Shown here piece by piece: positions 3,518-19,550 of a DNA stretch of 64,000 nucleotides (position 1 is the first letter of the stretch; every line of letters begins with the position of its first letter). The notes under the pieces are model-generated. The model made no database searches. It was not told the DNA's origin and worked only from the letters and a program-made list of their open reading frames with translations. The position numbers and the translations under genes are program-made. This stretch comes from Microbacterium helvum (GTDB lineage: Bacteria; Actinomycetota; Actinomycetes; Actinomycetales; Microbacteriaceae), in assembly GCF_014779795.1 (NCBI RefSeq), contig NZ_JACXZS010000014.1, positions 1 through 64,000 on the forward strand, written 5' to 3'.

Positions 3518-4888
3518 TTACTTCGCCTTCGCGTACAGCGACTCGGCCTGCACCTGTGCGTCGGCCAGCAGCTGGTCGATGTCGGCGTTCTGGTCGGTCA
3601 GCACCGATTGCACGACCGCGTCGAGGAGCGCGTACACGTCCTGCGTCGCGGTGCGGGGCTCGGCGATGAGCGGCTGGTCGCCGCTGTTGTCGGTGTACGG
3701 CGCCATCTGGTCGAGCGGGACGTTCACGTACGGCGCGATCCACGACTGGTACTCGGCGAACTGGTCGGCGTTGAAGATCGGCAGTTCGGGTGCGCCCACG
3801 GGCTGATCGAGGGATGCCGCCAGCTTCGCAGTCTCGACGGCCACGTCCTCGTCGGTGATCTTGGCGAGGTAGTAGAAGTCGATCCACTTCACCGCGGCCG
3901 CCTGTGCCGCATCGTCGGCCTTGGGGCTCACGGCCGCGAGGGTGCCGCCGCCGAGAACGCCCGGGTCATCACCCTGCAGGGGCAGCACGGTGATGCCGTA
4001 ATCGTCGGGGTTGAGGGCGTTCTGTGTGACGAGGTTGCCGTAGTTGCCGCCGCCCGAGACGTACATGCCGATCCGGCCCGAGGCGAAGTCCTGATTGATG
4101 GTGCCCCAGTCGTACAGGAAGTTCGCACCCATCGAGTTGTCGTACCAGCGCAGCTCGTGCAGGTACTGCAGCACCTCGGCCACGGCGGGGTCGGAGTCGA
4201 TGGTCGGCTCGCTCGAGTCGGCGTTCTCGGTGCGCCCGCCGAAAGCGTTGACGAGCGTCGTGAGGATCCAGCCGCCGGTGTTGCTCGACGTCATCGTCGC
4301 GTAGCCCGCCTCGCCGGTGGCATCGGTGATCTTCTTCGCAGTCTCACGGACGCCGTCCCACGTGGTGGGCGGGTCGTCCGGGTCGAGCCCGGCGGCCTCG
4401 AACAGCGACCGGTTGTAGTGGAGCGCCTGCCCGTAGGCCGCGATGGGCACGGCCCACTGGCTGCCGTCCTCGGCCTGACCCGCTTGCGCGACGTTCGGGT
4501 TGAAGTCGGCGGCGTACGGGAGCTCGGCGACCAGATCGCTGATATCGGCGATCTGCTTGCCGGCGATGAGCCCCCGACCGTCGGTGAACGGGATCGTGAA
4601 CACGTCGGGGAGGGTGCCGCCCGCGAGGTCGGCCGTGAAGGTGGTTGCCGTCCAGGTGTACTCCTGCGCCTTGACCGCGATGTCGGGGTTGGCCTTCTCG
4701 AACGCCTCGACGCGGGCGTCGAAGTTCGCGCGTGCCTCCTTCTCCAACCCCGCGTCGATGGCGACCGTGATGGTCGTCTTTCCGTCGGAGGAGTCGGAGC
4801 CGGAGCCGCTCGCGCAGCCGGCGAGCAGGGCGCCTGCCGTGACGAGGGCGAGTCCGGCGAACGTGCCTCGGGTGAGGGATGACCTCAT
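3518..4888 (-). CDS. Extracellular solute-binding lipoprotein (family 1) for alpha-glucosides
   Basis: This 456-residue protein has a lipoprotein signal with lipobox LLAGC (Cys25) and a Ser/Gly/Asp-rich linker. The family-1 binding-protein body follows, including GTLPDVFTIPF and NRSLFEAAGLDPDDPPTTWDG, the conserved sugar-binding lobe signatures. It would be anchored outside the membrane and deliver sugar to the two downstream permeases. It is encoded 66 nt after the GH13 gene in the same direction, so its substrate is probably the oligosaccharide released by the secreted GH87 enzyme and later cut by GH13. Substrate identity is inference from context. Confidence 0.9.
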   Translation of the reverse strand: MRSSLTRGTFAGLALVTAGALLAGCASGSGSDSSDGKTTITVAIDAGLEKEARANFDARVEAFEKANPDIAVKAQEYTWTATTFTADLAGGTLPDVFTIPFTDGRGLIAGKQIADISDLVAELPYAADFNPNVAQAGQAEDGSQWAVPIAAYGQALHYNRSLFEAAGLDPDDPPTTWDGVRETAKKITDATGEAGYATMTSSNTGGWILTTLVNAFGGRTENADSSEPTIDSDPAVAEVLQYLHELRWYDNSMGANFLYDWGTINQDFASGRIGMYVSGGGNYGNLVTQNALNPDDYGITVLPLQGDDPGVLGGGTLAAVSPKADDAAQAAAVKWIDFYYLAKITDEDVAVETAKLAASLDQPVGAPELPIFNADQFAEYQSWIAPYVNVPLDQMAPYTDNSGDQPLIAEPRTATQDVYALLDAVVQSVLTDQNADIDQLLADAQVQAESLYAKAK

Positions 4889-4954
4889 TGTCTGGTCCTT
4901 TCGTGCTGTGTCAATTGTCAGCGCCAGGGCGGGCGCTCTCCGCGTGCGCGCGGC

Positions 4955-6634
4955 TCAGACGACGAGCCATGCGGTGGAGTCTGTGGGCAGCGCGCCGTCG
5001 TCGACGGGCGCGCTGGAGAGGAGCACCTCGCGGTGCGGGGGAAGGGCGATGGGTGCACCGAGATTCGTGATCGACACGAGGTGCGTGCCCCGGCGGAACG
5101 CGATGACGCCGGGGCCGTGATCCAACCACTCCAGTCCATCTGTGTGGAAGCCAGGCGTTCGCCGCCGGATCGCGAGGGCATTGCGGTAAAGCGAGAGCAT
5201 CGATCCCGGGTCGGCCAACTGTGCCTCGACCGTGAGCGCGCCCCAACCGGCGGGCTGAGGCATCCAGGTCTCGGCTCCCGGCGCCGTGCCGAATCCGTAC
5301 GGCGCGGCCGCGCCCGACCACGGCAGCGGCACCCGGCACCCGTCGCGTCCCGGATCGACCCCGCCGGAACGGAAGTGCATCGGGTCCTGCAGAACATGAG
5401 GCGGCAGCTCCACCTCGGGCAGACCGAGCTCGTCGCCCTGATAGATGTAGAGCGCGCCGGGCAGGGCGGCCGTGAGCAGAGCCGCGGCACGGGCGCGGCG
5501 GGTTCCGAGCGCGAGGTCGGTCGGGGTGCCGAAGCGCTTCCGGTCGAACGCGAAACCGGAGTCTGTGCGGCCGTAGCGGGTCACCGGACGGGTGACGTCG
5601 TGGTTCGACAGCACCCATGTCGCTGGTGCGCCGACGGGGGCATGTTCCCGCAGGGTGCGCTCGATGGATCCGCGCAGCTGCGACCCATCCCACGGGCGCG
5701 TCATGAAGTCGAAGTTGAAGGCGCTGTGCATCTCATCGGGCCGCAGGTACGCCGCGAAGCGCTGCGGGTCGTCGAGCCAGACCTCGCCGACGAGCACGCG
5801 GGGCTCGTCGTACGAGTCGGCGATGGCGCGCCAGGACCGGTAGATGTCGTGGAGGTCGTCGCGGTCCATGTGGGGGTGCTCCCCGGGGGCGGCCTGCACC
5901 GGAAGGGGCGGAAGGGCGGCATCCTTCACGAGGAACGCGGCGGAGTCGATCCGGATGCCGGCGACGCCGCGATCGAACCAGAACCGCAGCACGTCCTCGT
6001 GCTCGCGGCGGACGTCAGCGGCGTCCCAGTTGAGGTCCGGCTGCTCAGGGCTGAAGAGGTGCAGGTACCACTCGCCGGGTGCGCCATCGGCATCGATGGT
6101 GCGGGTCCAGGTGTCACCGCCGAAGCTCGAGACCCAGTCCGTGGGCTGCTGCTCGCCGTGCTCGCCGCGACCAGGCCGGAACCAGAACCGCTCACGCTCC
6201 GGGGATCCCGGCGATGCGGCGAGCGCCTGCTGGAACCATGCATGCTGATCCGAGACGTGGTTGGGGACGATGTCGACGATCGTGCGGATCCCGACCTCAC
6301 GCGCCTCATGGATCAGAGCCTCCGCGTCGGCGAGGCTGCCGAAGGCGGGATCGATCGTGCGGTAGTCGGCCACGTCATAGCCGCCGTCCGCGAGGGGTGA
6401 GGCGTACCAGGGCGTGAACCACAGCGCGTCGACGCCGAGGTCTCGCAGGTATCCGAGCCGGCTGCGCACGCCGGCGAGGTCCCCCGTGCCGTCGCCGTCG
6501 CCGTCGGCGAAACTGCGGGGATAGATCTGGTAGATCACCGCGTCACGCCACCACGGAGCAGTGAGGACGAGGCGTCCGCCCTCACCTCCGTCGGCTCGCG
6601 CCACGGGTGTCTCTTGCAGATCTTGGGGACCCAT
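4955..6634 (-). CDS. GH13 alpha-glucosidase (cytoplasmic)
   Basis: This 559-residue protein has a complete GH13 catalytic barrel. YQIYPRSF is near residue 36, DIVPNH at 121-126, the nucleophile region GIRIDS has Asp230, acid/base Glu284 is in LVGEVW, and NHD is at 344-346. There is no signal peptide, so it acts in the cytoplasm. The pattern fits oligo-1,6-/alpha-glucosidases that hydrolyse short imported alpha-glucosides to glucose. It is the first gene of the importer operon. A LacI-type site lies about 35 bp upstream in the divergent region shared with the LacI-like gene at 6739. GAGAGG precedes the ATG at 6634. Exact linkage specificity is not evident. Confidence 0.9.
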   Translation of the reverse strand: MGPQDLQETPVARADGGEGGRLVLTAPWWRDAVIYQIYPRSFADGDGDGTGDLAGVRSRLGYLRDLGVDALWFTPWYASPLADGGYDVADYRTIDPAFGSLADAEALIHEAREVGIRTIVDIVPNHVSDQHAWFQQALAASPGSPERERFWFRPGRGEHGEQQPTDWVSSFGGDTWTRTIDADGAPGEWYLHLFSPEQPDLNWDAADVRREHEDVLRFWFDRGVAGIRIDSAAFLVKDAALPPLPVQAAPGEHPHMDRDDLHDIYRSWRAIADSYDEPRVLVGEVWLDDPQRFAAYLRPDEMHSAFNFDFMTRPWDGSQLRGSIERTLREHAPVGAPATWVLSNHDVTRPVTRYGRTDSGFAFDRKRFGTPTDLALGTRRARAAALLTAALPGALYIYQGDELGLPEVELPPHVLQDPMHFRSGGVDPGRDGCRVPLPWSGAAAPYGFGTAPGAETWMPQPAGWGALTVEAQLADPGSMLSLYRNALAIRRRTPGFHTDGLEWLDHGPGVIAFRRGTHLVSITNLGAPIALPPHREVLLSSAPVDDGALPTDSTAWLVV

Positions 6635-6666
6635 TCGTCAGTGACCTCTCTGTCGGATGCGCTAGG

Positions 6667-6678
6667 TTTAGCGGTATA
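6667..6678. promoter_or_regulatory. Candidate LacI-family operator TTTAGCGGTATA
   Basis: The site lies in the 104-bp divergent region between the GH13 operon and the HTH-less LacI-like gene. It shares TTTAGCGGTA and differs in only one base from the site at 10550-10561 in the GH87/LacI divergent region. The core resembles LacI-family operators (TTTAGCGCTAAA-like) with a central CG. The probable ligand is the full LacI repressor at 10628. Confidence 0.6.
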
Positions 6679-6738
6679 TCTCGATGAGACAGTAGATGTC
6701 CGTCGGGGTGATGTCAACTCGCACCGAAGGAGGATCGG

Positions 6739-7566
6739 ATGACCGATCCGCGACCGAGCATCGGCCTCATGTTCCCCGACGCGCAGCCCGAGTCACTCGC
6801 GCCGTGGGGGCACGACGGCGAGTACCTGGCGGCGCTCGACGGAGAAGCGCGGCGCCGCGGCATGCGGCTCGTGCTGTGCGGCACACGCCGCGCCGCCGAC
6901 ATCCCGCAGATCGCCGACGACCTCGATGGCGTCGTGCTCATGGGGTACCACGACGACGACCTCGAGACGCTCCCACGACTGACCGCGCCCGCGGTCGCGG
7001 TCGACGGCTACAGCGATCGGGACGACCTGATGATCGTGCGCTCGGACGACCACGACGGAGGGCGCCGTGCGGGCGCGCTGCTCACGTCGCGCGGGCACCG
7101 CGAGCTCGTGCTCGTCGGGCCGGACGCGCACGACAGCGGAGCGATGCGCGCCCGCGCGGCGGGCTTCGAACGCGCGGCCATGGACGGCGGCGCGCGCTCG
7201 ATCCACCGCCAGGTGACGGCCGGCACGACCCTGCGGGAAGGCACGATGATCGGCAGGATGCTGCGAACCCGCTTCCCCGCCGCCACCGCCGTCTTCGCCA
7301 CGACAGACACCCTCGCGGCGGGCATCGTCGAGGGGCTCGCACAGTCGGGCGCGCGCGTTCCGGAAGACCTCTCGATCGTCGGCTACGACAACCTGGCGCT
7401 GGCCGCACTCGTGACCCCGAAGCTCTCGACGGTGGCGCAGAACGTCGCCCGCAAGGCGCGCCTGACGGTCGACCTGCTCCTCGAGCCGGATCGGCGCACC
7501 GGTCCGCTCGTCACCGAGGTGGTGGTGCTCGAACGCGCGACGGTCGGACCGCCGGCATCGCGCTGA
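6739..7566 (+). CDS. LacI-type ligand-binding protein lacking the DNA-binding domain
   Basis: The 275 residues correspond only to the periplasmic-binding-like core of a LacI/GalR regulator. Recognisable elements are DGVVLMGYHDDD, the DDHDGGRRAGALLTSRGH segment, FATTDTLAAGIVEGL, and the C-terminal PEDLSIVGYDN followed by the usual domain-closing strands. Normal family members are about 330-340 residues with an N-terminal HTH (TIxDVAxxAGVS). Here there is none. AAGGAGGA lies directly upstream of the ATG at 6739, and no in-frame HTH precedes it. It may be a cytoplasmic sugar sensor or an anti-repressor-like partner of the LacI protein at 10628. Its role is unknown. Confidence 0.8.
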   Translation: MTDPRPSIGLMFPDAQPESLAPWGHDGEYLAALDGEARRRGMRLVLCGTRRAADIPQIADDLDGVVLMGYHDDDLETLPRLTAPAVAVDGYSDRDDLMIVRSDDHDGGRRAGALLTSRGHRELVLVGPDAHDSGAMRARAAGFERAAMDGGARSIHRQVTAGTTLREGTMIGRMLRTRFPAATAVFATTDTLAAGIVEGLAQSGARVPEDLSIVGYDNLALAALVTPKLSTVAQNVARKARLTVDLLLEPDRRTGPLVTEVVVLERATVGPPASR

Positions 7567-7575
7567 CGAGAGCGC

Positions 7576-7590
7576 GATGCCGGCGGCATC
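7576..7590. terminator. Short perfect palindrome between convergent genes
   Basis: GATGCCGGCGGCATC is a 7+7 bp palindrome around one base. It lies in the 29-nt gap between the stop of the LacI-like gene and the stop of the GH87 gene. Its position between convergent genes suggests a bidirectional terminator, although no T tract follows. It belongs to the GATGCCGGCGGC hairpin family seen elsewhere in the window. Confidence 0.4.
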
Positions 7591-7595
7591 CCGGA

Positions 7596-10517
7596 TCAGC
7601 CGCCGCAGGCGACCCCGTCGAGCGTGAAGCCGGCCGGGGTGACCAGGCGCGGCCCGTTCACGGTGCCCGACACGACGAGGGTGCGACTGCCGCCCGGCCG
7701 CAGTTCGCTCACCTGCGGGTGGACCTCGACACGCGTGCCGGTCTGCACGACCTCCGCACCGGCGACGCTGAGCACGGCCTCACCGCTCGCGGCGTGCCAC
7801 GCGAGCGAAGACACCGGCAGCACGACGGCGCCCGTGTTGCGCAGCGTCACCGTGGCGACGAACGCGCCGCTCGGGCTCGGGGTCGTCTTGACCGTGACGG
7901 CGCACGCCGCCGTCACCGCCGCGAGCAGTCCCGTGTTGCCGCCCTCGTCGATGAACGTGCCCCACAGGTGGTTGCGCCCGTCCGCCGGCTCGGTGACGCC
8001 CGAGACGACGACGTCGCGGAAGCGATGGTCGCCGCCGACGCGCGCCGCGACCGCGTACGAGCCCGTGCCCTCGATCGTCACGTCGCTGACGCGCAGGTCG
8101 TTGACCCAGTGGCTTCCGCTCACGAGGAGGCCTTCGTACGACGAGTCGACGATGCGGGTGTCCGAGATCACGACGGGTGTGGTGATGTGGCTGGTGTCGG
8201 CGAACACCCAGATGCCGCCGAACGACGTGCTCCAGTTCGGCTCCCACCCGCCGCTGCGGAAGATGTCGTTGCCCGACACGACCGTGGTGCCCGAGAACGG
8301 CACCGGATTGAACCGCGTGCTGACTGCGATGCCTGCCGGAGCAGTCAGGGTGTCGGCGATCACCGAGTCGGTCACACGGTTCGAGTCGCCGCCGTAGATC
8401 GCCGCACCGTTGCCGAGCAGCGGGCTCTGCACCGTCGCGTGGGTGAACACGGCGCGGGTCACCGCACCTCCCGACGACCACATCGCCATGGCGTCGTCCC
8501 CGGTGTTGCGCACGCTCGCGTGCGCAACGACCGCGTCGGTCACACCGCCGTGGAGGTGGATGCCGTCGGCGTAGGTATCGCGCACGCGCAGCCCGACCGC
8601 GAGGAGGCCGTCCGTGCCGGCATCCACCCACACCCCGGTCTTGGTGTGTGCGATCCAGACGTCCTGAACGAGCGACCCCTGCCCGAAGTCGCCCTCGAGC
8701 CCGGAATCGGAACGGGCATCGTCGCGATGGTCGGCGTCACCGTCGATCATGAGATCGGCGACCGTGACACCCGACCCCATCGCGTACAGGCCTCCCCTGC
8801 CTTCGCGCCCCTGCAGGACGGAGTACCAGGGTCCCGCACCGCGCACCGAGACGCCGACCAGGCGTACGCGGTCGGTGATGGTGAACCGGCCCTGCGGGAT
8901 CCACACGCCCGTCGGCTGCTCCTGCGCGGCGGCCACGGCCGCGACGATCGCCGCGGTGTCGTCGGTGCCGTCGTCGGCGGTCGCGCCGAAGTCGCGCACG
9001 TCGAGGTATCCGTCTGGCTTCGGCAGCGCCACCGGAGCCGGTCCGGTCTCGATGAGGTCGACCGTGTAGGGCAGATCACCCGACTCGTTCACGAGCCGCA
9101 GCTTCGTGCCCGCCGGCACCTGCGGGAACGTGATCCGGCCGTCGTCGAAGTACCGCTGAGGCCCGCCCTGCGAGGGATCGTTGCCGTAGGGATACGCACC
9201 GTACACCCAGGAGTGCCGGCTGGTGACGGGCAGGTTGGCGATCTTCTTCGATCCCGCGTACACGGCGAGCATGCCGTCCTGGCCGGTTCCCTCGGCAGTG
9301 TCGGGGATCGACACACGGGCTTCGAGCGCACCTGCCGCGGCCGTCAGCGTCCAGGCCACCTCGTCACGCGCGCCGGCGAGGGTGACCGCCTGACGGCCGG
9401 ATGCCTCTGCCGCCAGGTCGTGGAACGTCCGGCTCTCGGTCAGGATGACCCCGTCCGTGCGTCCGTGCTCGGCCTCGTAGACGGTGGTGCCCAGGTGCGC
9501 TCCTCGGCCGGCGGCATCCGTCCCGCGCTCGAGCCGCAGTGCGTCGACCACGACCCCGCCGTCCAGGGCGTCGCCCACGCGGCGGAGTTCGACCGTGCCG
9601 AGTCCCTCCCGCAGCGGAGTAGCAAAGGCTATGTCACGCCACGCCGACGAGGGCGGCAGCTCGAGCACACCGCGCGGCATCCCGTCGGTGCCGACGACGA
9701 GCCGCACCGACTCCGTCGCGGTGCTGCGGTAGCGCAGCGACACCGCCTGGGCCCGCGAGTCGGCCGCGAACGTCGTGACGACGAGCCGGGCACGCTCGGC
9801 AGAGAGGTCGACGCCCGACGGGCCCGCCTGCGTCACCACGGCACCGTTGGCCCGGAACGCATCCTCTGCCTCGGCCACCACTCCGCCGCGTGCGGGTGCG
9901 GCCGTCGGGAGCACCGTCGTGACGGCATCCCACCGCGTGTCGGGGCCCGTCCCCGGGATGTCGCCGGGGTCGGTGGCGCCGCCGCCCGGTGTCGACAGGT
10001 CGCCGACCGCGGTCAGGGCGATGGCGTCGAGGTTGACGTTGCCGGTGTCCTCGGCGTCGAACCGGAAGGCGATCCGCTGCGGCCCGGCGTCGAGCGTCAC
10101 CGCCTCCTGGTGGATGAACCACTGACTCCACGATGCGCCGATCGCGGACGGCAGCACGATCTGACGATCCTCGTCGCCGATGACCTGCGAGAGGGTCATG
10201 TCGGAGCCCAGGCCGTTGGCGTACCGGAGGTTGAGTCCGTACTCGCCGGGGGCCGGCACGTCGACGTCGAACGTCACCGCGGCGGTGCCCGTGTGGTCGA
10301 TCACGAAGCCGTCGACGAACCCGGATCCCGAGTAGCCGAGGTGATTCTGGTTGACACCGGCGCCGCCGGCGAGCGCGGCATCCTCGGCTTCATAGACGAG
10401 TGGCTCGGCGGCGTAGGCGGCCGGAACGCACGTGGCGCCGACCGCGATCACGACGGCGACGGCCGCGCATGCCGCGGCGATGCGGCCGCGGCGCCGACCA
10501 GGCAGGGGAATGGTCAT
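7596..10517 (-). CDS. Secreted GH87 alpha-1,3-glucanase (mycodextranase type), multidomain
   Basis: This 973-residue secreted enzyme has a signal peptide to about residue 37 (AYA/AEP). Three carbohydrate-binding-like beta modules each start with an (E)AE motif (about 40-172, 214-332 and 347-492). A right-handed beta-helix catalytic domain spans 503-860, beginning DGYLDVRDFGA. A C-terminal CBM2-like module has a Cys pair and ends in LDGVAC. Candidate catalytic aspartates are Asp651 (YADGIHLHGG) and Asp674/Asp675 (NTGDDAMAMW); their 23/24 spacing matches the Asp triad known for GH87. It should cut alpha-1,3-glucan of fungal walls or dental/plant mutan outside the cell. It is divergent from LacI at 10628, with a shared operator. 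Confidence 0.85.
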   Translation of the reverse strand: MTIPLPGRRRGRIAAACAAVAVVIAVGATCVPAAYAAEPLVYEAEDAALAGGAGVNQNHLGYSGSGFVDGFVIDHTGTAAVTFDVDVPAPGEYGLNLRYANGLGSDMTLSQVIGDEDRQIVLPSAIGASWSQWFIHQEAVTLDAGPQRIAFRFDAEDTGNVNLDAIALTAVGDLSTPGGGATDPGDIPGTGPDTRWDAVTTVLPTAAPARGGVVAEAEDAFRANGAVVTQAGPSGVDLSAERARLVVTTFAADSRAQAVSLRYRSTATESVRLVVGTDGMPRGVLELPPSSAWRDIAFATPLREGLGTVELRRVGDALDGGVVVDALRLERGTDAAGRGAHLGTTVYEAEHGRTDGVILTESRTFHDLAAEASGRQAVTLAGARDEVAWTLTAAAGALEARVSIPDTAEGTGQDGMLAVYAGSKKIANLPVTSRHSWVYGAYPYGNDPSQGGPQRYFDDGRITFPQVPAGTKLRLVNESGDLPYTVDLIETGPAPVALPKPDGYLDVRDFGATADDGTDDTAAIVAAVAAAQEQPTGVWIPQGRFTITDRVRLVGVSVRGAGPWYSVLQGREGRGGLYAMGSGVTVADLMIDGDADHRDDARSDSGLEGDFGQGSLVQDVWIAHTKTGVWVDAGTDGLLAVGLRVRDTYADGIHLHGGVTDAVVAHASVRNTGDDAMAMWSSGGAVTRAVFTHATVQSPLLGNGAAIYGGDSNRVTDSVIADTLTAPAGIAVSTRFNPVPFSGTTVVSGNDIFRSGGWEPNWSTSFGGIWVFADTSHITTPVVISDTRIVDSSYEGLLVSGSHWVNDLRVSDVTIEGTGSYAVAARVGGDHRFRDVVVSGVTEPADGRNHLWGTFIDEGGNTGLLAAVTAACAVTVKTTPSPSGAFVATVTLRNTGAVVLPVSSLAWHAASGEAVLSVAGAEVVQTGTRVEVHPQVSELRPGGSRTLVVSGTVNGPRLVTPAGFTLDGVACGG

Positions 10518-14744: not shown

Positions 14745-15914
14745 CTATCCGGTCCTCGACGACAGCGCGTCGCGCACCGAACCCCACCCCGCCATCACGT
14801 CGCGGACCTCCAGGTCGCGTTCGGCGTCGAGCGCGGCCGCCAGCGACGCCTCGAGGATCTCGTCGATCGTCACCCGGCGCCCCTCGCGAGCGCTGAGCAT
14901 CGCGGCCTCGACCATCGCAAGGCTCAGGATGTTCTCGTGCACACGCCCCATCGGCTCGACTCCGGTGCGCAAGGCCGCGGTGAACTCTCGCAGAGATCCC
15001 GCGATCCCGTCCCCCGGCGCCGGCGAGACCGGCGCCCCCGAACCCGCCGCAGCGGTGACCGCCGCCTCGCCGACCGGACGGTCGGCCCCGTCGCTGACGG
15101 CATCCACGATCGGGGCGTCGTCGCCGTCCCACAGCACGGTGCCGCCCTCGGCCGAGAGCCGCCAGGCGCCGTTCCATGAGGTCTCGGCGCCGGGGCTGCA
15201 CCAGCTTCCGGCGAAGACGAACCGCGCGCCGCCCTCGAACGCGAACGCGGCAGTGGCCGCGGCGTCGCCGGCGTACCAGCTCCACGCAGGGTTGTACTCG
15301 TCGCACAGCACCGACACCGGGTCGGCATCGAGCAGGAACCGCGCCATGTCGAACTGGTGGATCGCCATGTCGAGCAGCAGCGGACTCGCCATCTCGTCGC
15401 GGAAGCCGCCGAAGCGCGGCGCCTTGAAGAAGTCGACCGACAGGATGCCGGCACGCCCGAGCCGCCGCGCGGCCGCGCGTGCGGCGTAGAGGTGGTCGTT
15501 GTAGCGGCGCGACTGGCTGACCATGAACAGCCGGCCGGTCAGCGTCGCGGCCGCAGCCAGCGACAGCGCCTCGGCGACCGTCGCCGCGGCAGGCTTCTCG
15601 CCGAGCACCGGGAGGCCCGCGCGCAGCGCAGCGAGCGTCACCGGGTGGTGTGCTGCGGGAACGGTGACGTCGACGATGGCGTGAGCGCCGGTGCGTCGGG
15701 CGAGCTCGACGCCGTCGGTTCCGGTCGGCAACCCGGCCAGGCCGATCTCGCGCGCCGCGTCCTCCGCCACGTGAACGGCGAGGTCCGCGATGCCGGCGAG
15801 CTCGATCGCGTCATCGGCGACGATGGTGTGCAGCCAGGCGCGTCCCATGGGACCGGCCCCGACGACGACGACCCTCACGCGTTCGACGTCGTCGGGCAGG
15901 AGGGCGAACGTCAT
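14745..15914 (-). CDS. Gfo/Idh/MocA family oxidoreductase
   Basis: This 389-residue NAD(P)-dependent sugar dehydrogenase-type protein has a Rossmann GAGPMG motif at about 19-24 and the conserved EKP near residue 103. The substrate domain has the usual [13 protein letters not shown] helix (Lys/His/Asp catalytic region). It would oxidise or reduce a hydroxyl of a sugar or cyclitol in the cytoplasm. Its start overlaps the stop of the upstream ThuA gene by 4 nt, a common pairing in carbohydrate loci. The substrate is unknown; there is no transporter adjacent. Confidence 0.85.
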
Positions 15915-16720
15915 GCGTCGGCCGCCTCGGCGGCGGCGCGTGCCTCGGCGATCTCGGGGGCCGCGTGCGCATAATCCGCACCCTGGAAGAACTCGCCCCT
16001 CTCGTAGCGCATCAGCGTCGGCAGCCCGCGCTCGGCCCGATCCCTGTGCGCCCACCGCACGCCGTTCGCGATCACGCGCCGGACGTCGCGGTGGTGGTAG
16101 ACGGGGTACTCCTGGTCGCCGGGGCTGAAGTAGAAGATGCGACCGTGCCCGCGCCGGAACGTGCAGCCCGAGCGGAACACCTCTCCCCCGCTGAACGAGC
16201 TGACGAACACGAGCTCGTCGGGCGCGGGGATGTCGAAGAACTCGCCGTACATCTCCTGCTCGGGGATGTCGATCGGATGCGGCACGCCCTGCGCGATCGG
16301 ATGCGTGGGGTCGACCGTCCACACCAGCTCGCGATCCCGGTCGGACCGCCACCGCAGCGTGCAGCTCGTGCCCATGAGCTTCACGAAGATCTTCGACCAG
16401 TGCCCCGAATGCAGCACGATGAGCCCCATGCCCGAGAGCACGTGCCGGTGCACGCGCTCGACGACCTCGTCGCTCACCTCGCCGTGGGCCGCGTGCCCCC
16501 ACCACGTCAGCACGTCGGTCTCGGCCAGCACCTCCTCGGTGAGCCCGTGCTCGGGCTCGTCGAGCGTCGCCGTGCGCACGACGGCGCCGTCGCCGAGATT
16601 CTCACGGATGCCGTCGGCGATCGTGGTGTGCATGCCGTCCGGGTAGATCCGGGCGACGCTCTCGTCGTGCTGCTCGTGGCGGTTCTCGCCCCACACGGTG
16701 ACTCTGATGGGTCTGGTCAT
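15911..16720 (-). CDS. ThuA-domain protein (trehalose-utilisation type)
   Basis: This 269-residue protein begins [17 protein letters not shown] and contains the class-I-GATase-like ThuA core: [38 protein letters not shown] and [14 protein letters not shown]. ThuA proteins take part in disaccharide catabolism, and rhizobial ThuA/ThuB make 3-keto-disaccharides, although their chemistry is poorly defined. It is the first gene of a two-gene unit with the Gfo/Idh gene. The pair is the architecture expected for a keto-sugar step. The 36-bp repeat bordering the inserted segment starts 51 nt upstream of it. Confidence 0.85.
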
Positions 16721-16771
16721 GCGCCGATTCTTCCGCGCTGCTCCGGCGTCATGCGTGAGGCGCGGCGCTAT

Positions 16772-16807
16772 TTCGCGGGCGCGCCGACAAATGGATGCCG
16801 GCGGCCT
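16772..16807. repeat. 36-bp direct repeat, left copy
   Basis: The sequence runs TTCGCGGGCGCGCC-GACAA-ATGGATGCCGGCGGCCT. It is identical over 36 bases to 17697-17732, with 925 bp between equivalent positions. The two copies bound a lower-GC segment carrying one membrane-protein gene. Confidence 0.85.
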
Positions 16808-16821
16808 CGGCCGCCGGCATC
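16794..16821. terminator. GATGCCGGCGGCC hairpin at the left repeat
   Basis: Arms 16794-16806 and 16809-16821 pair perfectly over 13 bp with a 2-nt gap. It sits between divergent genes, where a terminator is not expected. This fits the idea that it was displaced by the insertion. Confidence 0.5.
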
Positions 16822-16970
16822 TCCGGCTGCTTCTACCTGAGGGAACGACTGCTGAACGCGCCAGAACCGAGTGCAGACGAAGCTTCCCTCGCCGCGTCTT
16901 CTGCGCTACGTTCAGATCGGGATCTGACCCACAAAAGCGCCAACAACCTGGGGATAGTGTGCATTGGGCG

Positions 16971-17669
16971 ATGGGGGACGCGGATGAGACCCCGCCACCG
17001 GGCACCGTCGATGTAACCCGGTGGCTGTGGAAGAGGAGGATGACAACAGCCCACGCCCGACTCGCGATAGTCGGCGTAATGATCGGTGTGGTCGGCGCGG
17101 TCGCAACCGTCTGGGCAGCATACGCAGTTGGACTGTACATGCCAGGGCGCATCTTCCGCGGCTGGATCGCAACCGTGGATTACGCCAACGCCCTGTTCAT
17201 GATCCTTTGGGCATCGACGTTGATCGGCTTCGGCGCCAACGACGGTCGGCGCTATCACATCCGTTTCGGATCACGAATCCGCAGAACGAGCTACTCGGAT
17301 GCTGTCGTCATCGCCTTGTTTGCAGCGACAGGCGCACTCTGGGGCGAACTGGTTCTGCGACCCGTCATGAACGGACGGGCCATCGACCCGGCGTACCTCC
17401 GTCACGTCCCGGCGGGAATGTCAGTCGACGCGTTGGCTTCAGGCGTCACCGTGGTGATTGTCACGTACTACGCAGCGCTGGGCCTTGTCTTCGCCGTCAA
17501 CCTCCTCGGCATGAGGTTCAACCCCGTCGACCTTGATTACTACACGACGATCACGCGCCGCCCCATCCGGTTCGGTCGCCCGTCAGAACGCCCCACCACC
17601 TCAGAAGGTAAGGAACACTCATTAACAGAACCCGAAAGACAGCAACCATGGTCGTGTGCGCATTGGTAG
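16971..17669 (+). CDS. Predicted four-TM membrane protein in an inserted segment
   Basis: The 232-residue product has four hydrophobic segments: about 28-52 ([21 protein letters not shown]), 65-85 ([15 protein letters not shown]), 103-123 ([18 protein letters not shown]) and 145-175 ([22 protein letters not shown]). A basic C-tail follows. No family was recognised. The start is uncertain: ATG at 16971, or GTG at 16959 preceded by GGGGATA. Codon use is less GC-biased than the neighbours, and the gene lies wholly between the two 36-bp direct repeats, so it is probably a recent arrival. Confidence 0.6.
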
Positions 17670-17696
17670 CCGGGAGCTTCACTGAATCGGCCTGAC

Positions 17697-17732
17697 TTCG
17701 CGGGCGCGCCGACAAATGGATGCCGGCGGCCT
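17697..17732. repeat. 36-bp direct repeat, right copy
   Basis: It is identical to 16772-16807. Its last bases overlap the stop codon of the DUF72 gene (17731-17733), so in an uninserted ancestor the repeat would have been the spacer between the DUF72 and ThuA genes. Confidence 0.85.
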
Positions 17733-18489
17733 ACCCGGTCACCAGCTCGCGCAGCCGCAGGGCATCGCGCACCGCGGCCCCACCGCCGTCGTTGTTGACA
17801 TAGCAGAGCACTGCGAGACCCTCCGCACGCCATCCGTCGATGCGCTGCGCCCACCACGCGAGGGCCGCGTCGTCGTAGCTGCCGACGTAGAGTCGCTCCG
17901 GATCGGGACCGTGGAAGCGCACGTACACGAAGTCGGTCGTCGCCCTCGGCTGCAGCGGCATGTGCGCTCCGCTCATCACGCAGTAGGCGGCATCCCGATC
18001 CTGCAGCAGCGCGAAGACGTCATCGGCCACCCATGAGGCGTGCCGCAGCTCGACGGCGACGCGGCACCCGTCCGGCATGGCGTCCAGCGCGGCCGCCAGC
18101 CGCTCGTCATCGCGCTCCAGATCGGGTGGCAGCTGCAGCAGCAGCGGACCGCGCGCGTCGCCGAGGCCCGCACTCCCCTCGGACAGACGCCCCGACCATG
18201 CCTGGGCCGAGGCGAGCTTGCGCGCGTGGGTGAGTCCGCGCGGCGCCTTCACCGCCATCAGGAACCCCGCAGGCACCCGGCTCGCCCACGACTCGAAGGA
18301 CGACCGCCGCGGCCAGTGGTAGAAGCTCGAGTTCAACTCGACGGTGTCGAACGACTGAGCGAAGACCTCCAGCCGGCGCGAGCCCGTGCCCCGCGGGTAC
18401 AGCACGTCCCGCCAGTGGTCGTAGCTCCAGCCAGAAGTGCCGATCCGCACGTCTCCCGGGGCCAGTCGTAGGTTCGCGACGCCGTCCAT
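17731..18489 (-). CDS. DUF72 family protein
   Basis: The 252-residue protein has the TIM-barrel DUF72 hallmarks: IGTSGWSYDHWRDVLYP at the N-terminus, ELNSSFYHWPRRSSFESWA, LQLPPDL, VAVELRHASW, and TDFVYVRFHGPD. It is cytoplasmic. The molecular function of the family is not established. ATG 18489 has GGAAGGTGGGG upstream. It is transcribed divergently from the flavodoxin-like gene across a 147-bp region with a 10-bp inverted repeat. Confidence 0.85.
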   Translation of the reverse strand: MDGVANLRLAPGDVRIGTSGWSYDHWRDVLYPRGTGSRRLEVFAQSFDTVELNSSFYHWPRRSSFESWASRVPAGFLMAVKAPRGLTHARKLASAQAWSGRLSEGSAGLGDARGPLLLQLPPDLERDDERLAAALDAMPDGCRVAVELRHASWVADDVFALLQDRDAAYCVMSGAHMPLQPRATTDFVYVRFHGPDPERLYVGSYDDAALAWWAQRIDGWRAEGLAVLCYVNNDGGGAAVRDALRLRELVTG

Positions 18490-18526
18490 CTGCCCCACCT
18501 TCCGCCCGCGGACGTCGGTTCGGCGA

Positions 18527-18578
18527 GGGGGTTGACGAATGGATGCCGCCGACCGAGCACACCGGTCTGTCAACCCCC
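18527..18578. promoter_or_regulatory. 10-bp inverted repeat in the DUF72/flavodoxin divergent region
   Basis: GGGGGTTGAC at 18527-18536 and its exact complement GTCAACCCCC at 18569-18578 are separated by 32 bp. Each arm contains a -35-like TTGAC facing outward, towards one of the two divergent genes on each side. They could be paired promoters or a two-site operator. Confidence 0.45.
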
Positions 18579-18636
18579 TGCGGTCCGATGGCACTCCGCC
18601 TAGCGTCGTTCCCCTGAGACGAAGGAGGACTTCGAC

Positions 18637-19098
18637 GTGCGCCCGGGAGTGAAGGCCGACATGGGGTCCGGCGACGCCTGGCCCGGCATCCGCCGCCGCA
18701 TCCTCGCGGCCGACATCCTCGTGTTCGGCACGCCCACGTGGATGGGCCACATGTCGAGCGTCGCTCAGCGCGTCCTGGAGCGCCTCGACGCCGAGCTCTC
18801 CGAGACCGACGAACAGGGGCGTCCGATCCTGGCCGGAAAGGTCGCCGCGACCTGCGTCGTGGGCAACGAGGACGGCGCCCACAAGATCACCGCCGACCTG
18901 TATCAGGCGCTCACCGACGTCGGCTTCTCGATCGCGTCGCAGGCGGGCACGTACTGGAACGGCGAGGCCATGCACACCGTCGACTACAAGGACCTCGACG
19001 GCACACCCGACGAGGTGGCGAGCGCCACGGCGACGCTGGCGCGCAACACCGCGCACCTGGCCGCGCTGCTGTCAGAGCGCCCGTATCCGGCCCCGTGA
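18637..19098 (+). CDS. Flavodoxin-like NAD(P)H oxidoreductase, N-terminally short
   Basis: The 153 residues match the C-terminal three quarters of the flavodoxin/NADPH-dependent FMN reductase family: GDAWPGIRRRILAADILVFGTPTWMGHMSS, VVGNEDGAHKITADLYQALTDVGF and YWNGEAMHTVDYKDL. Full relatives have about 45-50 more N-terminal residues that supply the first beta-strand and the FMN phosphate-binding loop. No such sequence lies upstream in any frame. Yet an AAGGAGG site sits 8 nt before the GTG at 18637, so the short form is probably translated. Flavin binding is doubtful. It may be a degrading gene or a re-purposed fragment. Confidence 0.65.
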   Translation: MRPGVKADMGSGDAWPGIRRRILAADILVFGTPTWMGHMSSVAQRVLERLDAELSETDEQGRPILAGKVAATCVVGNEDGAHKITADLYQALTDVGFSIASQAGTYWNGEAMHTVDYKDLDGTPDEVASATATLARNTAHLAALLSERPYPAP

Positions 19099-19104
19099 AA
19101 GACA

Positions 19105-19140
19105 GATGGATGCCGGCGGCCCAGGCCGCCGGCATCCATC
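19105..19140. terminator. Bidirectional intrinsic terminator hairpin
   Basis: Arms 19105-19121 and 19124-19140 (GATGGATGCCGGCGGCC and its complement) pair perfectly over 17 bp. GTTTCTTCT follows. It lies exactly between the convergent flavodoxin and truncated-hemoglobin genes and serves both strands. Confidence 0.85.
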
Positions 19141-19157
19141 GTTTCTTCTGTCAGGCG

Positions 19158-19550
19158 TTACGCGGTCTGCTCGACGGCGACCTCGTTCGTGATGACCGGA
19201 CGCAGCGGCAGCAGCGCACCGGCGACCTGGTTGATCGCGTCGGCGTCGACGCCCGCTTCCGCGAGCGCTGAGGCGGCGTGGCCGATGACGCGGTCGAAGT
19301 CCTCGCCCGAGATGCCGCGACCGGCGTGCGCGACGCCGAGGTCCTTGCCCTTGTAGCCGTCAGGGCCGCCCGCGGCGGCCGCGAGGAACAGCGCCATGTG
19401 ACGCTTCTGGTCGACCATGCGGGTCTCGGTGAAGTACGGCGCGAGGGTCTCGTCGCCCAGGATGCGCGTGTACAGCCCGTCGACGACGGCGGCGATGCCG
19501 GCGCCCTCGCCGAGTCGCTGATACAGGGTCGCTTCGGTGGTGTCGGTCAT
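19158..19550 (-). CDS. Group I truncated hemoglobin
   Basis: This 130-residue 2-on-2 globin starts TLYQRLGEGAGIAAVVDGLYTRIL. It contains YFTETRMVDQKRHMALFLAAAAGG and the proximal (F8) histidine in LGVAHAGRGIS. Such proteins bind O2/NO in the cytoplasm and often detoxify nitric oxide. It is the last gene of a minus-strand unit headed by a flavohemoglobin gene with a DivIVA-like gene between, so a nitrosative-stress role is likely. GGAG lies 8 nt before the ATG. Confidence 0.88.
   Translation of the reverse strand: MTDTTEATLYQRLGEGAGIAAVVDGLYTRILGDETLAPYFTETRMVDQKRHMALFLAAAAGGPDGYKGKDLGVAHAGRGISGEDFDRVIGHAASALAEAGVDADAINQVAGALLPLRPVITNEVAVEQTA

Follow-up and report, generated by a model that had tools for sequence, protein, structure and literature searches.

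A gene fragment bounded by 36-bp direct repeats in Microbacterium helvum: probably a one-off illegitimate insertion

Transposable elements typically come to lie between direct copies of their native target, the target-site duplication. Direct repeats also bound a sizeable share of other variable DNA: passages of a comparative study of E. coli, S. aureus and S. pyogenes give direct-repeat-flanked inserts as 10–18% of variable segments, with 66–94% of the flanking repeats being shorter than 30 bp, and quote a RecA threshold of about 30 bp in E. coli (PMC2884548). Homology-facilitated illegitimate recombination, as described in parts of a second paper, generally deletes or replaces a similar length of the target, whereas duplication results from circular single-crossover events (PMC3240628). 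The same pages report that 56 of the 60 clones analysed after E. coli conjugation carried a duplication product, attributed to single crossing-over, and that the duplications measured 109–950 bp in the 14 that were sequenced (PMC3240628).

Here we describe a segment of 889 bp between a ThuA-domain gene and a DUF72 gene of Microbacterium helvum. It lies in a window of 64,000 nucleotides, by which we mean the whole stretch of DNA analysed; the window lies in contig 6 of a 4.37-Mb draft genome in 33 contigs (G000 below). Like the variable segments with short direct repeats, as far as that account describes them (PMC2884548), it is a short intergenic insert with an empty allele in relatives and without mobile-element genes, but its repeat reaches 36 bp and one end of it also lies in a dispersed palindrome. 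With homology-facilitated illegitimate recombination, in the parts of the work cited (PMC3240628), it would have in common that one end sits at shared sequence while the other is illegitimate, and its insert is likewise about 1 kb long; in contrast, the target was duplicated rather than deleted, with an anchor no longer than 15 bp. The event is of an ordinary kind, a slightly long member of the known direct-repeat-flanked inserts. As with the target duplications of transposable elements, copies of the native target flank the insert; however, a duplication of 36 bp, or of 21 at the least, exceeds the usual length, terminal repeats and a transposase are missing, and the insert ends within a gene. 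On balance we favour, with some confidence, a one-off illegitimate insertion of foreign DNA between the ThuA and DUF72 genes. Rather than an element that moves itself, the insert is most likely a scar left by accident, and its DNA is probably foreign. Coordinates are collected in Table 1.

Table 1. Features of the ThuA–DUF72 locus (window coordinates)
Feature	Position	Strand	Remarks
ThuA-domain gene	15911..16720	-	left native neighbour
Left repeat copy	16772..16807	.	21 bp locus-specific, then 15 bp GGATGCCGGCGGCCT common to the dispersed palindrome
Junction palindrome	16793..16822	.	probably chimeric, with one arm in the repeat copy (left) and one in the insert (right); differs from the genome-wide family at 1 position
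Insert	16808..17696	.	889 bp, 61.5% GC; missing from both nearest relatives
4-TM membrane protein gene	16971..17669	+	alternative internal ATG start at 17040; no family match
Gene-2 remnant	17621..17695	+	~24 codons like the start of a 332-aa partner, similarity by eye
Right repeat copy	17697..17732	.	enters the stop codon of DUF72; the right flank is native
DUF72 gene	17731..18486	-	native neighbour on the right; coordinates follow the translation, start codon approximate

A first-pass annotation of this DNA had reported perfect 36-bp direct repeats, and the two copies are indeed identical over their full length. With up to 3 mismatches allowed, the 36-mer has exactly 2 matches in the window and 0 in 100 dinucleotide shuffles. 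The annotation had further spoken of a 925-bp low-GC insert; the low GC content stands (61.5% vs 69.8% for the window), whereas 925 is the start-to-start period of the copies. Within each copy, the 15 bp of GGATGCCGGCGGCCT that follow the locus-specific part may derive from either partner, so that the true duplication measures 21 to 36 bp.

To place the locus among relatives, we searched the DUF72 gene as DNA against 366 genomes of the genus, one genome per species. It found a match in 154, many of them over a few dozen bases only, and the best 30 of these loci, our own included, were compared with the window. Among those 30, similarity extended into ThuA only in G135 and G028, besides our own genome. 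DUF72 is 86% identical to the window in both of these nearest relatives, and on either side their flanks match the window at 82–89% identity as far as the repeat. In G028 and G135 alike, ThuA adjoins DUF72 with a single repeat core and without the insert. This is the empty site with one copy that the first-pass annotation had proposed to look for between the two genes, in keeping with its view of the segment as inserted; the contrary outcome it had named, relatives devoid of an empty-site allele, did not occur.

The repeat core (TTCGCGGGNNNNNCGACAAATGG, one mismatch allowed) was recovered from 3 of the 366 genus genomes, twice in G000 and once each in G028 and G135. The other 363 genomes searched gave none, nor was it present in the two genomes that hold homologous gene pairs (G174 and G162, see below). 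Because the core is single in the two relatives and absent from the rest of the genus genomes searched, the initial stretch of the repeat represents native target DNA. Both outer flanks are native too, and the unique part of the repeat is intergenic sequence of the locus that became duplicated. The first 23 bases of the copies differ at 5 positions from G028 and at 2 from G135, while no difference separates the copies from each other. Since the copies are mutually identical but differ from the relatives, the duplication probably postdates the split from both.

The two joints differ in kind. GGATGCCGGCGGCCT opens with one arm of a palindrome and the insert opens with the second, which places the left joint inside that palindrome. 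A hairpin of GATGCCGGCGGCC had been assigned to the repeat itself, but GATGCCGGCGGCC is one arm only, and a strong stem forms at the left copy alone: the stem at 16785–16830 folds with −30.1 kcal/mol (z −4.75), its second arm being contributed by the insert, vs a folding z of −0.40 for 17690–17750 at the right copy. The palindrome belongs to a dispersed family, GGATGCCGGCGGCC-NN-GGCCGCCGGCATCC. When up to 3 mismatches are allowed, the genome has 39 such places: 22 match perfectly, while 7, 7 and 3 carry one, two and three mismatches, respectively; a reversed-pattern control gave 0. Another member lies at window 19108–19137. At the left joint, 15 bp of the palindrome are common to the repeat copy and the family. 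The right joint lies outside any palindrome and has no clear homology. Of the earlier suggestion of recombination between dispersed repeats, it holds that a dispersed repeat, the palindrome, is involved at one end.

In all 15 palindromes inspected, complementarity extends at least one base beyond the 30-mer, the base outside GGATGCC pairing with the base outside GGCATCC. This outer pair is missing at the junction, as expected of a chimera, and the junction palindrome probably represents two different sequences fused. By crude gene calls, 7 of the 15 lie between convergent genes, 2 are ++, 2 are −−, 1 is −+ and 3 fall inside an ORF; the junction palindrome lies between divergent genes. Dispersed palindromes of this family may be terminators, and a search of the junction palindrome gave no terminator-like match. 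In being dispersed, perfect inverted repeats that are mostly called intergenic they resemble REP-like or terminator palindromes, but they are built from an enriched word, GGATGCC.

As had been annotated, the insert holds one ORF for a protein with four transmembrane segments (4-TM). Its structure model shows four long helices (mean pLDDT 66.6), and the GC3 of the gene is 0.72 vs 0.94 for ThuA. The protein has no match in Pfam, PHROGs or NCBIfam, and tblastn found none in phage or plasmid collections. In its own genome the gene matches only itself. Across the genus, 23 of the 366 genomes contain a match, our own, G174 and G162 included. Apart from our own, the convincing ones are confined to Microbacterium paulum 2C (G174; 40% identity, E 3e-38) and M. 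oleivorans Wellendorf (G162; 30%, E 3e-20), which share their genus with the window. The 20 other, weak matches were treated as chance similarity between membrane proteins; the one inspected by eye (L015) is a 458-aa Trk-like transporter ORF. A 4-TM profile run against 297 genomes drawn evenly from the order returned only our own genome, a weak negative given that the known holders G174 and G162 were not among the matches either, having been left out of the draw or missed by the profile.

Downstream of the 4-TM gene, both M. paulum and M. oleivorans have a second gene (gene 2), whose 332-aa protein is 54% identical between the two and has, by eye, a signal-peptide-like start; it is probably secreted. 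A structure model of this protein was unusable (pLDDT 33.4). At its start the M. oleivorans protein reads MTTTWKTSVLLVSALVGGSLAAVA; a stump in the window resembles this start over ~24 codons. The stump overlaps the tail of the 4-TM ORF, whose reading frame continues across it, and meets a TGA just before the right repeat copy. With gene 2 whole in two species and reduced to ~24 codons here, the insert is a truncated fragment of a two-gene pair, cut inside gene 2 at what amounts to a random end point. Scanning genome contigs for gene 2 (92 pattern stretches) yielded 2 loci, those of M. paulum 2C and M. oleivorans Wellendorf; a gene-2 profile search of our own genome, run without a positive control, found none, and among viral contigs 53 pattern stretches gave 0 confirmed relatives. 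A phage or plasmid origin was rejected on the absence of 4-TM matches from the phage and plasmid collections and of gene-2 relatives from the viral contigs. The whole pair of M. paulum (L067, 8900–11823) sits on a 15-kb contig where other ORFs match TniB (76.9 bits) and Mu-transpos_C (22.9 bits); by eye these are Tn7/Tn5053-like. That of M. oleivorans (L068, 10805–13584) adjoins a tyrosine-recombinase-like ORF (Pfam Phage_integrase, 19.2 bits, E 0.001, below the cut-off of 27.1) and lies beside a transposase-like ORF, the latter by eye.

We found no transposase, integrase, element ends or recognisable mobility gene in the insert. The annotation had likewise seen no integrase, and beyond the 4-TM ORF and the gene stump there was indeed no recombinase. 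Its description of the insert as a passive unit holds as to 'passive'; as a truncated piece of a pair, the fragment gives no evidence of moving as a unit. Insert-derived matches listed outside the locus in our own genome covered the palindrome part only (40 of 289 candidates scored), and a search of 58 whole genomes, our own included, returned a single match of 38 bp, in G007. A mobile unit with further copies was rejected on these results. Among the 25 longest of 37 inverted pairs, none joined the ends of the insert, and an IS or MITE was dismissed for want of terminal inverted repeats and of further copies.

How the fragment may have entered can be outlined as follows. A piece of the accessory pair (the 4-TM protein and its probably secreted partner), perhaps from another Microbacterium, would have reached the intergenic space between DUF72 and ThuA. 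One of its ends, bearing a copy of the dispersed palindrome (GGATGCCGGCGGCCTCGGCCGCCGGCATC), would have paired with the half-palindrome GGATGCCGGCGGCCT at the DUF72 end through microhomology of up to 15 bp; its second end would have been joined 21–36 bp upstream without clear homology, which would duplicate the target. The same duplication could arise if a staggered break were filled in and then closed by Ku-dependent end joining, or through a one-sided-homology event during DNA uptake. Ku is encoded in the genome (172–173 bits), so that a staggered break could have been filled in and end-joined; the presence of Ku is compatible with non-homologous end joining, by which the joint could possibly have been made. 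Palindrome-anchored illegitimate joining is the mechanism that we infer. Our searches found no donor sequence, and the donor palindrome and the true ends were thus not seen but belong to that inference. An anchor of 15 bp is short, and the homology-facilitated events on record generally delete the target instead of duplicating it (PMC3240628); both points count against the proposal. Of later events, only one can be foreseen: recombination or slippage between the repeats could remove the insert.

Of the rival explanations, a Campbell-type single crossover would have had a small circularised donor integrate through some homology to the site and duplicate that homology; the shared palindrome sequence could have seeded pairing, and duplication is the majority product in the E. 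coli conjugation assays, in the portion of that report cited (PMC3240628). Such a donor would have needed the 21-bp core itself, though, which among 366 genus genomes occurs at this locus only, and 15–36 bp is short for RecA by the threshold of ~30 bp that PMC2884548 quotes for E. coli, so we regard a single crossover as unlikely. The same core weighs against an integrative element that has decayed or is mobilised in trans, its integrase lost or supplied by the host, with the copies as attL and attR. Long perfect direct repeats and a clean empty site would fit att sites, as the first-pass annotation had thought; the M. oleivorans pair lies near its recombinase-like ORF of sub-threshold score, and the M. 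paulum pair shares a contig with TniB and Mu-transpos_C. Against this, the site is used nowhere else in the 366 genus genomes, the core is absent from both of those pair-bearing genomes, no tRNA lies in 15000–19500, and the insert lacks a recombinase and ends inside gene 2. The attL/attR assignment was rejected on the genus-wide core search (3/366, all at the same locus) and the missing tRNA, and we give an element of this kind a distinctly low probability.

An empty site might also come from deletion between repeats, since such a deletion leaves exactly one copy, and the insert could accordingly be ancestral and have been lost from the relatives by recombination or slippage. This would need two losses or a particular branching order. 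Moreover, the copies are identical although the relatives have diverged from both, and the gene is an outlier in GC3 with convincing matches in only 2 other genomes of the 366, at other loci; the copy divergence and the outlier gene argue for a recent insertion, and ancestry appears quite improbable. Least probable, and only barely to be entertained, is an assembly artefact in which a chimeric contig was joined at the shared palindrome. The draft state of the genome and a left joint inside a palindrome with 39 places would allow for it, but the right joint is outside the palindrome, a mis-join there would not duplicate the 21-bp core, which both copies contain, and the gene family does occur in the genus. 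If illegitimate insertion is the correct reading, the locus is a fairly clean natural case of a small accessory gene entering a chromosome without mobile-element machinery, and palindromes, were they truly recurrent joining points, would offer a route for gene gain in the genus.

A breakpoint test of the palindromes drew on 19 palindrome stretches of G135 and 18 of G028, which provided 12 locus pairs with shared flanks. A length difference of ≥100 bp no more than 100 bp away was seen for 4/13 palindromes vs 5/32 palindrome-free intergenic gaps, no clear excess. The comparison used crude ORF calls, one of its control gaps coincides with a palindrome case, and the pair L120/L145, in which only one flank aligns, was counted as showing no difference. 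These counts give no clear support to palindromes as general joining points. In two regions of our own genome, chosen for holding palindromes, synteny with G028 and G135 starts close to the palindrome. The clearest parallel is a stretch of 3.8 kb beside a palindrome in G028 (L150, ~4035–7800) vs 8 bp in G135 (L132, 4035–4043).

The palindromes are built from a word that may matter more than the insert. No 7-mer of the window is more strongly enriched than GGATGCC, counted together with its complement GGCATCC (87 vs 15.3 expected from dinucleotides). The word is also enriched in stretches from G135 (103 vs 18.9, rank 3), G028 (46 vs 5.9) and G162 (22 vs 4.2), and more weakly so in the 15-kb contig of G174 (9 vs 3.3, rank 75), so that the enrichment is 5–8 fold in four of the five stretches. 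Inside ORFs of the window it occurs 68 times, vs a mean of 25.1 and a maximum of 34 in 200 synonymous-codon shuffles; the corresponding figures are 61 vs 22.5 for G135 and 36 vs 11.8 for G028, which amounts to ~2.7–3 fold above synonymous shuffles in the three stretches tested, with ORFs crudely called. Neisseria and Haemophilus have DNA uptake sequences, and the pairing of GGATGCC in palindromes recalls these. Judged by title among the best-ranked matches of a literature search, no paper dealt with GGATGCC in Microbacterium. It could possibly be an uptake-, Chi- or regulatory-type word of the genus. Very speculatively, and with little probability in our estimate, GGATGCC might be a Microbacterium DNA signal word like the Neisseria uptake sequences, kept against synonymous drift and placed head-to-head in terminator-like palindromes; the insert would then be an uptake scar whose incoming fragment was selected and anchored by the palindrome.

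Other rearrangements are visible in the same window. About 0.55 kb that G028 and G135 retain is gone at ~18629, 0.9 kb from the insert, with about 2 bp shared at the deletion scar. The counterpart of this gap in G028 encodes a CBS-domain protein (Pfam, 100.5 bits) and the N-terminus of an FMN reductase; that enzyme has 200 aa in G028 and is down to 153 aa in the window (18637–19098). Given this second scar, repair scars do occur in the region of the insert. Further along, ~30 kb of the window (26828–56646) has no collinear match of at least 200 bp in the G135 stretch compared, which spans this distance in <100 bp; the difference reflects either a large insertion in the window genome or a deletion in G135.
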